Positions 11,701 through 55,689 of a stretch of 64,000 nucleotides of DNA are shown in pieces. Below the pieces are notes generated by a model. That model was not told where the DNA came from and did no database searches. It saw nothing but the letters and a program-made list of their open reading frames with translations. The stretch is from an uncultured Bacteroides sp. GTDB taxonomy: Bacteria; Bacteroidota; Bacteroidia; Bacteroidales; Bacteroidaceae. The stretch is from NCBI GenBank assembly GCA_947074205.1, contig CAMTOQ010000009.1, forward strand, positions 1 through 64,000, written 5' to 3'. Made by a program: the position numbers and the translations under genes. Each line of letters starts with the position of its first letter. The stretch's first letter is position 1.

Positions 11701-12723
11701 ATGAAGGAACAAGTTAGAAAACTCTGGAGTCTTTGCTTTGGCGATAGCGAAGCGTTCATGGACCTCTACTTCGAAAAGAAGTATAGCGATGATAACAACT
11801 ATGCTATTGAGCAAGATGGCAATGTGGTGTGTGCTTTCCAGATGCTACCCCACACACTTTGGCTGGAGAGGAAGGAGTTTTCGACTGTTTACGGTTCCGG
11901 CCTATGCACCCACCCCCACTACAGAGGCAAGGGTATAGGCAAAGTACTGGTAGGACAGATTCTAAAAGATCTCTACTCCAAAGGGATGATGCTCACCACA
12001 CTAATACCGGCCGAACCATGGTTGGGCGGGTATTACCACAATCTTGGCTACGAATATCTTTTCGACGTGGCCTATCACACCCTCTACCCCACTACCACAA
12101 CAGAGCCCAACGAGATCGACGTGGAGGCTAGCACAGCATGCACCCACGAGTCGTACTCGTATTTCCACCGCAAGCAACTAGAAAGAAATGGCGTGGTATT
12201 GCATTCGTGGGACGACTACCAAACTATTCTTGCCGATCAGTTTCTAGCAGGCGGCCTACTCTATACCGCTACTCTAAAGCAAAAGCTAGTGGGACTAGCC
12301 ATAGTGCAGCCCAAGGAAAACAAAGAGGTGCTGATACATGAGTTGTTCGCTGACAACGAAGATGTGAAGAGCGCCCTTGTTAAGCAAATTGCACTGGAGC
12401 ACCCCGAACAAAAAGTGGTGCAAATCGTTGGGGTAAGCGATTCTACCGCCGACAGCCCAATAATACACCTCGGCATGGGGCGCATTGTCAATGCAGAAAG
12501 TTTTCTGAACAGATATGCTCAGGCCTACCCTTTGTATACCTTAGAGGTAAACCTTGAGGACAAAGAGATACCAGAAAACAATGGAAAGTATGTGATTGCG
12601 GATGGCAAATGCACCAAAAGCAAAACCGCAGAAAAAGAAAACTGTAAGACAATCAGTGCAAACCATCTCATTATCGAACTCCTCGCGAAAAAAAACCTCT
12701 ATTTATCACTGATGCTCAACTAG
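11701..12723 (+). CDS. GNAT family N-acetyltransferase
   Basis: A 340-residue acetyltransferase. The N-terminal GNAT domain shows GSGLCTHPHYRGKGIGKVLV (about residues 66-85), with the RGKGIG acetyl-CoA pyrophosphate loop, and a conserved PAEPWLGGYYHNLGYEYL segment downstream. The length and layout (a GNAT half, then a second divergent half) resemble Eis-like enhanced-survival acetyltransferases. The substrate is unknown. The C-terminal 35 residues are Lys-rich and poorly conserved in appearance. It probably forms an operon with the DUF2156 gene. Tandem 22-bp repeats begin 21 bp after its stop. Confidence 0.82.
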   Translation: MKEQVRKLWSLCFGDSEAFMDLYFEKKYSDDNNYAIEQDGNVVCAFQMLPHTLWLERKEFSTVYGSGLCTHPHYRGKGIGKVLVGQILKDLYSKGMMLTTLIPAEPWLGGYYHNLGYEYLFDVAYHTLYPTTTTEPNEIDVEASTACTHESYSYFHRKQLERNGVVLHSWDDYQTILADQFLAGGLLYTATLKQKLVGLAIVQPKENKEVLIHELFADNEDVKSALVKQIALEHPEQKVVQIVGVSDSTADSPIIHLGMGRIVNAESFLNRYAQAYPLYTLEVNLEDKEIPENNGKYVIADGKCTKSKTAEKENCKTISANHLIIELLAKKNLYLSLMLN

Positions 12724-12744: not shown

Positions 12745-12832
12745 CACGGTGGCAAGGGCTAGTCACCGCGGTGACAAGGGCTACTCACCACGGTGGCAAA
12801 GGCTACCCACCACGCTGGCAAGGGCTACTCAG
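12745..12832. repeat. Four tandem 22-bp repeats, locus A
   Basis: Four consecutive units of exactly 22 bp start at 12745, 12767, 12789 and 12811. The consensus is CACGGTGGCAAGGGCTACTCAC, given here as CACGGTGGCAAG plus GGCTACTCAC. Units differ at a few positions only, and each can fold through GGTG...CACC pairing. The same unit occurs at 40563-40643 and 55464-55551, also right after a plus-strand stop codon. The block is more GC-rich than the surrounding AT-rich spacer. Confidence 0.9.
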
Positions 12833-13118
12833 TGACATAAAGACAGCAAGACACCCCAACAGCTAGCAATAGCATACTATTCTGTAAATAATATACTACG
12901 AATTAACCAAAATTTTTGCAGAAAGAAACTTTATTTGGTTAATATTTAAGAGGTAGAAATCAGAACTACTCCCACGAAAATTACAACTAAAAAGTAAGAA
13001 TAAGAGTGCTTTACTATCAAACTGTTAGTACGGAGGGGGTATTAGTATAAAAACATTAATTAAAATTGAGCAATCTAAATTTCAACAAGCGAATATAAAG
13101 AGGTAGATAGTTTTTATA
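12833..13118. other. AT-rich spacer between the repeats and the susC promoter
   Basis: About 290 bp of AT-rich sequence with no open frame of note, no palindrome with a T-run and no tRNA. It may hold operator sites for the downstream operon, but none is recognisable. Confidence 0.4.
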
Positions 13119-39806: not shown

Positions 39807-40562
39807 ATGAGATTTATATCATGGAACGTCAACGGCCTTCGTGCCGTGCATGGCAAGGGGTTTGCCGATATCTTTAAGAGTCTGGATGCCGACTTCTTCT
39901 GCCTGCAAGAGACCAAGATGCAAGCGGGACAGCTCGACCTAGAATTCGAGGGTTATCACTCGTTTTGGAACTATGCCGAGAAGAAGGGCTACTCCGGCAC
40001 AGCTGTCTTTAGCCGTCACCAACCGGTGGCCGTGACCTATGGACTAGGCATTGAAGAGCACGATCAAGAGGGACGTGTCATCACGCTGGAGATGGGTGAT
40101 TTCTACCTGGTAACTGTCTATACACCCAACTCGCAAGATGGCTTGCGCCGTCTGGACTACCGCATGCAGTGGGAGGATGATTTCCGTGCTTACCTATGCC
40201 GCCTAGATACGCACAAGCCGGTGGTGGTGTGTGGCGACCTCAACGTGGCACACAAGGAGATCGACCTCAAGAACCCAAAAACCAACCGCACCAATGCAGG
40301 CTTCACCGACGAGGAACGCGCCAAGATGCAAGAGCTGCTAGATGCGGGATTCACCGACACCTTCCGTCACTTCTACCCCGACACGGAACTGGCCTATTCG
40401 TGGTGGTCGTATCGCTTCAAAGCTCGCGAGAAGAACACAGGGTGGCGCATCGACTACTTCCTCTCTTCACAACGCCTCAACGATAAACTGATGGGCGCAA
40501 AAATCCACAGCGACGTGATGGGTTCCGACCATTGTCCAGTGGAAGTTGACATCAATTTGTAG
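39807..40562 (+). CDS. xth: Exodeoxyribonuclease III (AP endonuclease)
   Basis: A 251-residue enzyme that cleaves DNA at abasic sites and removes 3' blocking groups in base-excision repair. The Xth signature is clear: [16 protein letters not shown] at the N-terminus, FFCLQETKM with the metal-binding Glu, [26 protein letters not shown] and the C-terminal [11 protein letters not shown] with the catalytic Asp-His. Length is normal. A block of 22-bp tandem repeats starts directly after its stop codon. It stands alone between opposed operons. Confidence 0.97.
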
Positions 40563-40643
40563 GCTAGGGCTACTCACCGTGGTGGCAAGGGCTGGTCTGC
40601 TCGGTGAGTAGGGCTGGTCACCGCGGTGGCAAGGGCTAGTCAG
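40563..40643. repeat. 22-bp tandem repeats, locus B
   Basis: Three full 22-bp units start at 40578, 40600 and 40622, preceded by a partial unit at 40563-40577. The unit is the same as at 12745 and 55464, with variants such as GGTGAGTAGGG in place of GGTGGCAAGGG. The block begins at the first base after the xth stop codon. Confidence 0.88.
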
Positions 40644-40713
40644 CAAGGCGAATATTAGCCAAGAGTAAACCACACATTTACAGTCATTTACCAATAGCCC
40701 AAACAACCCATTG

Positions 40714-40955
40714 TAGGGACGCAGCGTGCTGTGCCCGCTATGCCGAATGGAAAAACACAAAGATCCGGATAAACCAATCCATGCGCTGTTGTGCCCATAT
40801 ACCGCAAGGAAAACACAAAGATCCGGATAAACCAATCCATGCGCTGTTGGACGGCACAGCAGGCTGTGCCACTACAACTAACCTATAACACACAGCAACC
40901 AAAAAAAATGTAGCGGCACAGCCTGCTGTGCCCATATACCGCAAGGGGAAACACA
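40714..40955. repeat. Mosaic of REP-like palindromes and a 58-bp-period direct repeat
   Basis: Two identical 40-bp copies lie at 40752-40791 and 40810-40849 (period 58 bp). The segment GTGCCCATATACCGCAAGG occurs at 40791 and again at 40929. Perfect palindromes GGCACAGC-AG-GCTGTGCC (40853-40870) and GGCACAGC-CT-GCTGTGCC (40915-40932) are present, with a degenerate copy near 40718. The same core occurs at 55993-56010. The rest of the 517-bp gap holds only the promoter of tldD. Short open frames here on the minus strand are repeat artefacts. Confidence 0.85.
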
Positions 40956-53090: not shown

Positions 53091-55466
53091 ATGATGTGGA
53101 GAACCCTACTTCTTTTGCTCCTTTGCTTGTGTGTTAGCCCGATATCGGCCGGCCAACCTCAACATAGCATTAAAGGAAGCGTGATAGACAAGACGACACG
53201 TCAACCCCTCGCTTTTGTCAATGTGCTATTGATAGGGCAAGATAGAGGCAGTGTCACCGACTCATTGGGGGCCTTTCATATCGACCGTGTGCCTCCGGGT
53301 ATCTATCGGCTACAAGCCTCTACCATCGGTTATCGCACCGTGAGTACGCCCGAATATGTGGTATCTACCGGCAATGTCAACGTGCTTATCGAGTTAGAAG
53401 AGAGCACGGCCGAGTTGCAAGAAGTATCGGTGATGGCCACCTCGCTACGTCGCGACAAGGAGAGTCCCGTGGCCCTGCGCATCATCGGTGTGCAAGAGAT
53501 AGAGAAAAGCCCCGGCGCCAACCGCGACATCTCGCGCATTGTGCAGTCGTATCCCGGTGTGGCCTTCTCGCCCGGCGCCTATCGCAACGACCTTATCGTG
53601 CGCGGTGGAGCCCCCTCGGAAAATCGGTTCTACCTAGATGGAGTAGAGATACCCAACATCAACCACTTCAGCACACAAGGTGCTTCGGGCGGGCCGGTGG
53701 GCATCATCAATGCCGACCTTATCCGCGAAGTAAAGTTTTACACCGGTGCCTTCCCCGCTAGCCGAGGCAATGCCATGAGCTCGGTGCTCGACTTCCGGCT
53801 ACGCGATGGCAACAGCGAACGCACCAAACTAAAAGCCACACTGGGTGCCGCCGAGGTGGCAGTAGCCGTAAACGGTCCCATCAGCGAGAAGACCACCTAT
53901 ATGGTTTCGGTGCGCCGCTCCTATCTGCAGTTCCTTTTCAAGGCACTTGGACTGCCCTTCTTGCCCACCTTTACCGATGCACAGTTTAAGATAAAAACAC
54001 GGTTCGACCAATACAATGAACTCACCATTATCGGTTTGGGAGGGATAGACAAGATGAAGCTCAACACTAAGCTCACGGGCGAGAGTGCCGAATATATCTT
54101 GAGCTATCTGCCCGTGATAGAGCAAGATGTGTTCACCGTGGGAGCTGTGTACAAGCACTATGCAGGGGCGCACGTGCAGACGGCCGCTGTGAGCTTCAAC
54201 TACCTGAACAATCGGAACACCAAGTACCTCAACAACGATGAGTCATCGGACGAGAACTTGCGCCTGCGACTTCGCTCGGTGGAGCAGGAAGCCAAAATCA
54301 GACTAGAGAACACATCGACTCTAGGTAGCTGGCTGCTCAGTGGGGGCGTCAACCTAGACTACTCGCGCTACACCAACAACTCCTTGCAACTGGTCTACGG
54401 CCTGGAGCAGCCCTACCGCTATAAGACGAAGCTCAACCTCGTGCGCTGGGGCATATTTGGTACAGCCACTTACACATCGACCAACGAGAAGTTTACCGCC
54501 TCGCTGGGGCTACGCCTCGATGGCAACAACTATAGCGATGAGATGAATCAGCTGAGTCAGCAATTCTCCCCTCGCCTTTCGCTATCTTACGGACTCACCT
54601 CACAACTCTTCCTTAGTGGCAGTGCCGGCATCTACTACCAACTGCCGCAATACACTGCCATGGGATTCAAGAACGAAGATGGCTTGTACCTCAACACCAC
54701 TCTGCGCTATACACGCGTGGCACAAGGTAGTCTGGGGCTTAGTTGGCGCTTGGGCAACACCCTAGAGCTATCGGCAGAGGGATTTTATAAATACTACAGT
54801 CGCATGCCCTTCTCCATAGCCGATAACATTCCGCTGGCCTGCAAAGGCAACGACTACGGGGTGATAGGCAACGAGCTGCTTCTGCCCACCGCACAAGGTC
54901 GCAGTTACGGTGTGGAGCTGCTGGCCCGTTGGATCATCTCGCGCAAGCTCAACGTCAATGGTTCGTTCACCCTCTTCCGAAGCGAATACCGCAACAACAG
55001 CCAATCGCCCTACATCGCTTCGGCGTGGGACAATCGCTATATCTTCAACCTTAGCGGGGTGTACAACCTGCCCCGACAATGGAGCGTTGGCGCTAAAGTG
55101 AGCTGCATCGGTGGTGCGCCCTTCACGCCCTACGACACCGAAACCTCTTCGCTGGTATCTGCTTGGAATGCCACCGGCAAACCTTACTTCGACTATGCAC
55201 TCTTCAACACGGGCCGCCTCCCGACCTATGGACAGATTGACATCCGTGTCGATAAGGTGTACTACATCAAGCGCTACATGCTGGGATTCTACATCGACAT
55301 TCAAAACATCACAAAAAGCACTTTCCGCGAACCCGATATTTTGATGAGCACAGGCGAGATAGAAAATCCCACCGCCCCCTTTGGAGAGCAACGATATAAG
55401 ATGAAGTACATCGAGCAAAGCAGTGGCACCATTTTGCCCACTTTGGGGGTGACTTTTGAGTTCTAA
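53091..55466 (+). CDS. TonB-dependent receptor with carboxypeptidase-regulatory-like domain
   Basis: A 791-residue outer-membrane receptor. It has a signal peptide (MMWRTLLLLLLCLCVSPISA), a CarboxypepD_reg-like domain (about residues 24-110: IKGSVIDKTTRQPLAFVNVL, then PPGIYRLQASTIGYRTV), a plug with RDISRIVQSYPGVAFSP and VRGGAPSENRFYLDGVEIPN, and a beta-barrel ending GVTFEF with a final Phe. It is not of the SusC class and no SusD follows. It probably takes up a small chelate or cofactor. Its distance of 8 bp from the flippase suggests cotranscription. The ligand is unknown. Confidence 0.92.
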   Translation: MMWRTLLLLLLCLCVSPISAGQPQHSIKGSVIDKTTRQPLAFVNVLLIGQDRGSVTDSLGAFHIDRVPPGIYRLQASTIGYRTVSTPEYVVSTGNVNVLIELEESTAELQEVSVMATSLRRDKESPVALRIIGVQEIEKSPGANRDISRIVQSYPGVAFSPGAYRNDLIVRGGAPSENRFYLDGVEIPNINHFSTQGASGGPVGIINADLIREVKFYTGAFPASRGNAMSSVLDFRLRDGNSERTKLKATLGAAEVAVAVNGPISEKTTYMVSVRRSYLQFLFKALGLPFLPTFTDAQFKIKTRFDQYNELTIIGLGGIDKMKLNTKLTGESAEYILSYLPVIEQDVFTVGAVYKHYAGAHVQTAAVSFNYLNNRNTKYLNNDESSDENLRLRLRSVEQEAKIRLENTSTLGSWLLSGGVNLDYSRYTNNSLQLVYGLEQPYRYKTKLNLVRWGIFGTATYTSTNEKFTASLGLRLDGNNYSDEMNQLSQQFSPRLSLSYGLTSQLFLSGSAGIYYQLPQYTAMGFKNEDGLYLNTTLRYTRVAQGSLGLSWRLGNTLELSAEGFYKYYSRMPFSIADNIPLACKGNDYGVIGNELLLPTAQGRSYGVELLARWIISRKLNVNGSFTLFRSEYRNNSQSPYIASAWDNRYIFNLSGVYNLPRQWSVGAKVSCIGGAPFTPYDTETSSLVSAWNATGKPYFDYALFNTGRLPTYGQIDIRVDKVYYIKRYMLGFYIDIQNITKSTFREPDILMSTGEIENPTAPFGEQRYKMKYIEQSSGTILPTLGVTFEF

Positions 55467-55551
55467 ACTGGCAAGGGAAGGTCAGCGTGGTGAGTAGCCG
55501 TGGTCTGCTCGGTGGCAAGGGCTTGCCACCACGGTGAGTAGCTGTGGTCAG
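55464..55551. repeat. 22-bp tandem repeats, locus C
   Basis: Four units start at 55464, 55486, 55508 and 55530. The first includes the stop codon of the TonB receptor gene. The unit at 55508-55529 with its next base forms a perfect hairpin GGTGGCAAG-GG-CTTGCCACC (55511-55530). It has the same 22-bp family as loci A and B. The rest of the gap to 55689 is AT-rich and holds nothing recognisable. Confidence 0.88.
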
Positions 55552-55689
55552 CATAGCAGCTATTTGGCAGCACTTACATCTACAGTAAAGCATTGACTAT
55601 CAGCAACGAAGAATTGCTAATTTAAAACTGTTATATATATAAGTTATCTTCTGTAAATTCATCAACACCTTAAAACTGATAATCTAATT

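Follow-up and report, generated by a model that had tools for sequence, protein, structure and literature searches.

A class of intergenic DNA arrays in Bacteroides and its relatives is defined by geometry and not by sequence

The three short tandem arrays in the window (the whole 64,000-nucleotide stretch of an uncultured Bacteroides sp. that we analysed) are well supported as one dialect, d1, of a class of intergenic DNA arrays that have a geometry, and no sequence, in common. An array of this class has about eight inverted half-sites of 8–10 bp, whose dyad axes recur approximately every 11 bp. This amounts to some four palindromes with a pitch of 22 bp, and the whole spans roughly 82–90 bp. 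Many visibly different dialects have this one geometry, and several of them can be found in a single genome. When dialects are pooled, the arrays of the best-scanned genomes are more evenly spaced than expected by chance, mostly 9–50 kb apart; the support for even spacing from other genomes is weaker. While the class itself is well supported, its function is what we infer: with a preference that falls somewhat short of an even chance, we suggest that the arrays may be DNA-level sites for chromosome spacing, interchangeable between dialects.

Results

Three arrays at the stop codons of unrelated genes

The original prediction placed tandem repeats at the stops of three unrelated genes, and all three arrays are present in the sequence. 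Each is 88 bp long with a period of 22.

12721..12723, + strand: stop codon of a GNAT-domain gene (11701–12723; Pfam name), 24 bp upstream of element 1
12748..12835, no strand assigned: d1 element 1, four 22-bp units starting at 12748, 12770, 12792 and 12814
40560..40562, + strand: stop codon of xth, an exonuclease III-like gene (39807–40562; Pfam Exo_endo_phos)
40559..40646, no strand assigned: d1 element 2, four 22-bp units; unit 1 overlaps the stop of xth
55464..55466, + strand: stop codon of a TonB-dependent receptor gene (53091–55466; Pfam name)
55467..55554, no strand assigned: d1 element 3, four 22-bp units, beginning at the base after the TonB-receptor stop

The units had been described as exactly 22 bp long and variable, and this holds, phase and length being kept while the letters are not identical: TRF lists elements 1 and 2 with 84% and 71% matches, and element 3 is absent from its listing of the window. 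The unit matches the window five times at ≤3 mismatches, against none in 100 dinucleotide shuffles. A perfect GGTG...CACC hairpin had been described in element 3, and it is there at 55511–55530, with 9-bp arms (GGTGGCAAG-GG-CTTGCCACC). This unit is an exception, since genome-wide the inverted arms next to each other resemble one another less than expected (see below). A repeat of another type, seen by eye, follows element 2 at 40740–40860: a direct duplication (..AACACAAAGATCCGGATAAACCAATCCATGCGCTGTTG..) with GGCACAGC..GCTGTGCC palindromes.

The d1 family in its own genome

The d1 unit, GGTGnnnAnnnnTnnnCACCnn, is made up of two oppositely oriented half-sites, and its dyad axes are 11 bp apart. 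A whole-genome search, suggested as a check on the three loci, revealed a real family: the 3.32-Mb genome (97 contigs, 89% complete) contains 128 matches at ≤3 mismatches (70 on the + strand and 58 on the − strand), against a single one for the reversed control pattern. Several arm spellings occur (GGTG-GCAA, -AGTA, -ACCA, -GATA), and units elsewhere in the genome are found in either orientation without change of phase. There are at least 80 copies, nearly all of four units; using a four-unit scoring window, we extracted 76 distinct elements from 100 loci and the window. A fifth unit is absent on both sides in 27 of the 28 elements tested, and we rejected a minisatellite or VNTR because unit number is too constant; two loci, L001 and L196, have three units each. 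Twenty-six elements align without gaps. The edges of the 76 elements, read by eye with 14 nt of flank, are mostly of the form TTT/../AA(A), and a few have the alternative AAAACATAG../..CTATGTTTT. An origin in phages or plasmids was also rejected: neither 72,556 plasmid records nor 50,697 phage records contain a match to element 2.

Simple ORF calls place 73 of the 76 elements outside ORFs, and give flanking gene pairs that are tandem (39), convergent (21) or divergent (14), with 2 undecided. By the same calls, 22 of 82 neighbouring 3' ends lie within 30 bp of an element, against 3 of 68 5' ends. The preference for 3' ends that had been proposed is thus a lean and not a rule, because the divergent pairs, 14 of the 74 elements with two called neighbours, leave no 3' end at the site.

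The genome has a second dialect, d2 (AGTCCATAG..CTATGGACT), on the same 22-bp pitch and interleaved with d1.

d2 elements: loci L291–L296; own contig C4 at 19418, 38259 and 118135

It is also present on own contigs C11, C13, C19 and C31, and on the first three of these it lies within gaps between d1 elements. Scanning own contigs C1–C5, C7 and C9 added four weaker d1 elements, plus d2.

One pitch, many dialects

We built a sequence-only model, R1, from 26 elements. It has at least 151 matches in its own genome, on both strands (150 of 572 candidates scored). Related genomes had been named as a further place to look, and under stricter filters, with 26 candidates scored in each, R1 matches at E ≤ 1e-5 in at least 32 of 158 genomes of the genus, its own included. 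We read 20 of the weaker loci and found the geometry kept and the letters changed. Examples are TTCTCACC.nn.GGTGAGAA in G112, CCCCACC..GGTGGGG in G126, TATCCAC..GTGGATA in G070, and TTGCCA..TGGCAA in G113, G079, G087, G043 and others. The original prediction did not recognise the family and noted that its phase and length are preserved; that holds, and what lay beyond its view is the evenly spaced, motif-independent class on a 22-bp pitch to which this dialect belongs.

We then used a motif-blind detector, which scores eight orientation-normalised half-sites on a set pitch with no motif as input; dialects were distinguished and counted by eye. It returned over 20 distinct motifs from Bacteroides, Parabacteroides, Prevotella and their relatives. 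In a test set of 80 named loci fetched via xth (623 kb), 12, 10 and 9 loci exceed thresholds of 0.72, 0.75 and 0.78 at period 22, against at most 2 at the other periods from 17 to 31 and none in Markov controls. The ten loci that score best at 22 (threshold 0.75) come from Bacteroides, Prevotella (P. disiens, P. conceptionensis and others), Bacteroidaceae, Porphyromonadaceae, Prevotellaceae and unnamed Bacteroidales. Two of them (L064 and L085) have one motif and the rest differ by eye; in L039, L064 and L085 the array is at most 50 bp from the xth stop, as is element 2 of the window. A match in L108, best at period 24, looks like a coding repeat, and matches in Prevotella and Bacteroides loci that are best at 21 (L084, position 51) or 23 (L041, position 7958) may be drifted members.

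The same pitch stands out in larger stretches. Our own contigs give 14 arrays at period 22 and none at 19, 20, 21, 23, 24 or 25; G079, a single contig, gives 10 at 22 and at most 3 at 20, 21 and 23–25; Parabacteroides distasonis gives 11 at 22 and at most 2 at the other periods from 17 to 28. In G262, which belongs to another family, there are 25 at 22, yet 14 at 21. Within 398 kb of each genome, the ten arrays of G079 represent at least six dialects, and the 27 arrays of G262 (threshold 0.70) about eight. Four stretches of E. coli K-12 totalling 200 kb contain no array at period 22. Among twelve Bacteroidales stretches, the one from the same genus has two arrays, and the eleven others, taken from a sister genus and ten other families (ten stretches of 20 kb and a single one of 2.2 kb), have none; the class is for this reason not demonstrated in every Bacteroidales family.

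The number of arms is less uniform than the pitch. With a four-unit detector, whose build bears on the result, eight arms are the commonest number in our own contigs, G068, G262, the G112 set and the named loci, and are not the commonest in G079 and P. distasonis, where counts scatter. A three-unit detector gives 6–13 arms in G262 and G079 and 5–10 in P. distasonis, with eight the commonest in G262 (13/23) and tied with six in P. distasonis (3/11 each). A single dialect can have as few as 9 copies (G112) or about 13 (G079), and d1 has at least 80. The TTGCCA dialect also matches four unannotated faecal records labelled as phage (MT836135, MT836126, MT835808, MT835965), with five places in one such record of 12.6 kb, and two P. 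distasonis records. In searches of the open-access PMC literature, we found no description of a multi-dialect class with a 22-bp pitch.

One could regard each dialect as the array of binding sites of its own local regulator. Dyads two turns apart would suit dimeric regulators, and some dialects appear only once in the 398 kb of G079. However, d1 has at least 80 copies, arrays are closer to stops than to starts, and the ten neighbouring genes in G079 are unrelated (the A subunit of gyrase/topoisomerase IV, YqeY, RecO, sigma-54, SusD and others). We rejected local operators on this lack of relation between neighbours, and rank them as the least probable of all the explanations considered here.

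Arrays are evenly spaced across dialects

We compared the gaps between arrays with uniform placement (20,000 simulations each), a null that has no intergenic structure. In our own genome, the 29 gaps between d1 elements are all at least 9.3 kb. Pooling d1 and d2 gives 39 gaps with the same minimum of 9.3 kb and a CV of 0.41; none is under 8 kb, against 12.2 expected, and none of the 20,000 simulations was as even (P < 5e-5). On most contigs of this set the elements are those among the matches listed, so some may be missing. A fairer test is consequently given by the six fully scanned contigs with at least two arrays, where 17 gaps give P = 0.0006 for the minimum and P = 0.002 for gaps under 8 kb. 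Own contig C5 has a single array in 108 kb.

P. distasonis was analysed with records NZ_OY725748.1 and NZ_OY725812.1 (101 kb of the latter is outside the scan), which we read as pieces of chromosome, despite a plasmid label, because they carry dnaB, thrS, infC and dnaK. Across 269.6 kb this species has 14 arrays, which belong to about ten dialects and have a minimum gap of 9.0 kb. This minimum has P = 0.0025 if a neighbouring 50 kb free of arrays is counted in, P = 0.0009 if it is not, and P = 0.004 when only the 11 arrays scoring at least 0.75 are kept. The array-free 50 kb contains tra genes of a conjugative element, which is only suggestive.

The remaining genomes are less clear. In G079 the minimum gap (P = 0.007) and the CV (P = 0.049) are significant and the number of gaps under 8 kb is not (P = 0.14). 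G068, with 10 gaps, gives P = 0.035, 0.22 and 0.12 for the same three statistics. For all 27 arrays of G262 these are 0.15, 0.018 and 0.037, and without the two weakest arrays 0.19, 0.005 and 0.003; close pairs of unlike dialects are found in this genome 1.1, 2.8 and 4.6 kb apart.

Sites turn over and dialects are copied

The arrays are not fixed at their loci. After the TonB receptor, G000 has an array, no array was found in G145, G146 or G068, and G004 has at most a degenerate array that stays below threshold, with best scores of 0.71 (three units, period 22) and 0.64 (four units). After xth, G146 carries a shorter array. By eye, 11 of 20 G068 elements seemed to share a neighbourhood with our own; a stricter test left 3 of 20 with the same gene and gene end, and 2 more with the same gene and the other end, and we dropped deep positional conservation. 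Loci L244 and L250 have flanks that are alike by eye and differ in number of dyads, four versus six. In G262, a family of 11 copies of AACTACCGGTAGTTTG has a common leader of about 40 bp, some copies having a longer flank; its third dyad is a variant in most copies and is found in place in either orientation, and two G262 dialects have their outer flanks in common (all by eye). Together, these comparisons show that array sites turn over, that single units can flip and that dialects are copied. A motif common to G000 (L012) and G068 (L222), CTGATAATnAGCTGTTTAT, stands beside the array at the same gene, on one side in the first genome and on the other side in the second; it could be a target or a regulatory site (by eye).

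Such observations would be expected if tandem palindromes were made and shuffled as a by-product of template switching or hairpin slippage during replication. Units inverted in phase in our own elements, the third dyad of G262 and the change from four to six dyads between L244 and L250 are all in line with this process. It would nevertheless yield no single pitch, no set of about eight arms and no even spacing at the kilobase scale, and our own neighbouring arms are less complementary than chance. We consider it very improbable as the source of the class.

A more serious contender is that the arrays are non-autonomous mobile palindromic repeats, similar to REP/BIME or MITE, each dialect being a family copied within its genome. 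The four-dyad geometry would then be recognised or built by the copying machinery, and insertions would survive between a stop and the next promoter; the original prediction had raised a non-autonomous tandem element, which remains a rival. Dialects are multi-copy within genomes, the G262 family has its leader and two dialects their common outer flanks, and occupancy of the TonB-receptor site differs between species. Our own elements have inverted edges (TTT..AAA), and their whole-element similarity is slightly higher than in unit-shuffled sets (0.789 versus 0.772, sd 0.0034). PMC6006769 reports a subclass of TnpA-REP in Bacteroidetes with atypical secondary structures on its flanks, further copies of which are found in the genome; this also fits. 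On the other hand, we found no Y1_Tnp/RAYT gene (PF01797) in our own genome, in an assembly that is 89% complete, and found it in 3 of 11 other array genomes and not in the remaining 8, a distribution that led us to reject RAYT-driven REPs. We identified neither an autonomous relative nor, by eye, a target-site duplication, in flanks too diverged for an aligned empty site. Finally, immunity specific to a family explains neither even spacing across dialects nor one pitch for unlike sequences. Because copying of dialects and turnover are directly seen, we place mobile repeats as a close second to chromosome-spacing sites, as an explanation that is quite conceivable and still on the improbable side. 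In G262, a Y1_Tnp (RAYT-like) gene lies a few hundred bp from an array of the TTGTTGATAAC dialect (L383); the two could be a cognate pair.

Pairing between arms is not preserved in the own genome

The original prediction suggested, as one of two possibilities, an RNA role on the basis of position at 3' ends and of preserved pairing. The 3' UTR would then contain several short hairpins in series, which would terminate transcription, block 3' exonucleases or bind a protein. The position lends this some support. In P. distasonis, the annotated genome (its gene table is an incomplete PLSDB table, and gene calls elsewhere are simple ORF calls), all 14 arrays adjoin a 3' end, 4 are between convergent genes and none between divergent ones; 12 of the 14 overlap a stop or lie at most 45 bp away, and one covers the end of a 78-codon CDS. 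In our own genome the position is less favourable, given the 14 divergent pairs.

Preserved pairing fails in our own genome. Neighbouring inverted arms are less alike than in between-element shuffles for seven adjacent pairs (z from −1.3 to −4.3; 74 of 76 elements), and non-adjacent pairs have |z| below 1.6 in the same elements. The anti-matching is mainly at positions 2, 6 and 7 on the NN axis and 5–7, 9 and 10 on the spacer axis. Long-range pairing within the 88 bp gave no arm pair above expectation (largest z 1.2), and RNAalifold found zero pairs in 26 of our own elements. The mean folding energy of −43.6 is well below the −26.0 of mononucleotide shuffles, and elements are no stabler than chimeras with shuffled arms (−44.3, z = +0.8). 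Rfam has no match within the window.

If pairing were kept in an RNA, mismatches on the sense strand should favour G-T over A-C. The two are equal in our own genome (147 versus 147; 39 elements with one sense direction, both axes), and together with the anti-matching this leaves the compensatory changes in the arms, which had been named as a check, without support. In P. distasonis, there are 32 G-T and 17 A-C on the better axis (p = 0.04; 13 of the 14 arrays, taking the + gene when genes converge), or 69 and 39 counting both axes. The same trend is found in G262 (14 versus 8 in 14 arrays, not significant), and G079 has 9 versus 8 in 6 arrays. We rejected RNA hairpins for d1, as RNAalifold, arm identity, chimera folding and the G-T to A-C comparison are all unsupportive. 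Since G-T equals A-C in our own genome, unlike the weak excess in P. distasonis, an RNA reading is disfavoured in the former and may hold in Parabacteroides. Even spacing at the kilobase scale is unexpected for parts of 3' UTRs, and we regard an RNA element as an unlikely basis for the class.

Discussion

A proposed DNA-level role in chromosome spacing

We favour, tentatively, the hypothesis that the arrays act as sites in double-stranded DNA, read through their phased dyads. Twenty-two base pairs are about two turns of DNA, which places all dyads on one face of the helix. The reader would most likely be a topoisomerase or a nucleoid protein acting as an oligomer, and would require about one site for each topological domain; gyrase and an oligomeric HU-like protein are candidates. 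One array in G079 adjoins an HU-HIG gene, which proves nothing on the reader. Dialects would replace one another, since any array within the interval would suffice, and this would allow the turnover of sites. A site at a 3' end would spare promoters, and supercoils gather there, which may be why 3' ends are favoured. A site read by its structure and selected at kilobase intervals would lead to a common pitch and unit number and to even spacing across dialects; the copying of a single sequence family explains neither. In its broadest form, the proposal is that Bacteroidales chromosomes may be marked about every 10–40 kb by a sequence-free code of four phased palindromes, landmarks of domains for a nucleoid or supercoiling machine that reads structure, with a 22-bp pitch and with letters that drift and are freely replaced while pitch, number and spacing are selected. 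We hold this wider statement with more reserve than the role in spacing itself.

Comparison with known systems

BIMEs, which bind gyrase, and REPs associated with RAYT resemble the arrays: they are short intergenic palindromes, grouped, in multi-copy families and leaning to 3' ends. The arrays differ in keeping a 22-bp pitch and about four dyads through all changes of sequence, in being even across dialects, and in that RAYT is mostly not found. PMC3733652 describes REPs that stand singly, as dimers whose members are at varying distance, or in groups of variable composition. The BrickBuilt MITE of Porphyromonas gingivalis is also close: it too lies between genes in a member of the Bacteroidales, as tandem repeats that have dyad symmetry and measure about two turns, with a leader and a tail as in the G262 family. 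As described in PMC4596501, it has a 23-nt unit in 1 to 22.8 copies, a single family of 19 loci, and IS5-like 12-bp TIRs. The arrays have instead a 22-bp pitch, about four dyads and many dialects; the 23-nt direct repeat is not encountered here, and no IS5-like 12-bp TIRs were seen by eye in the 76 own elements with 14 nt of flank.

Other systems have part of these properties. The sites matS, parS and KOPS are short DNA sites dispersed on the chromosome, and each has one sequence and one reading protein. They fix the sequence, whereas the arrays vary it and fix the geometry. The right end of Tn7 has four 22-bp TnsB sites in 90 bp, i.e. the length and site number of an array, and Tn7 target immunity spaces insertions. 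Its sites are asymmetric and direct, and its immunity is specific to the family, whereas the arrays are dyad-symmetric.

Implications

The chromosome landmarks and interspersed repeats known so far are families defined by sequence. A class that has only its geometry in common, and whose unlike dialects are evenly spaced in two genomes or more, would add a new type of feature to the chromosome, in dominant gut bacteria whose nucleoid organisation has been little studied. Even if the arrays are mobile, the single architecture of many unlike families and their even spacing need to be explained.
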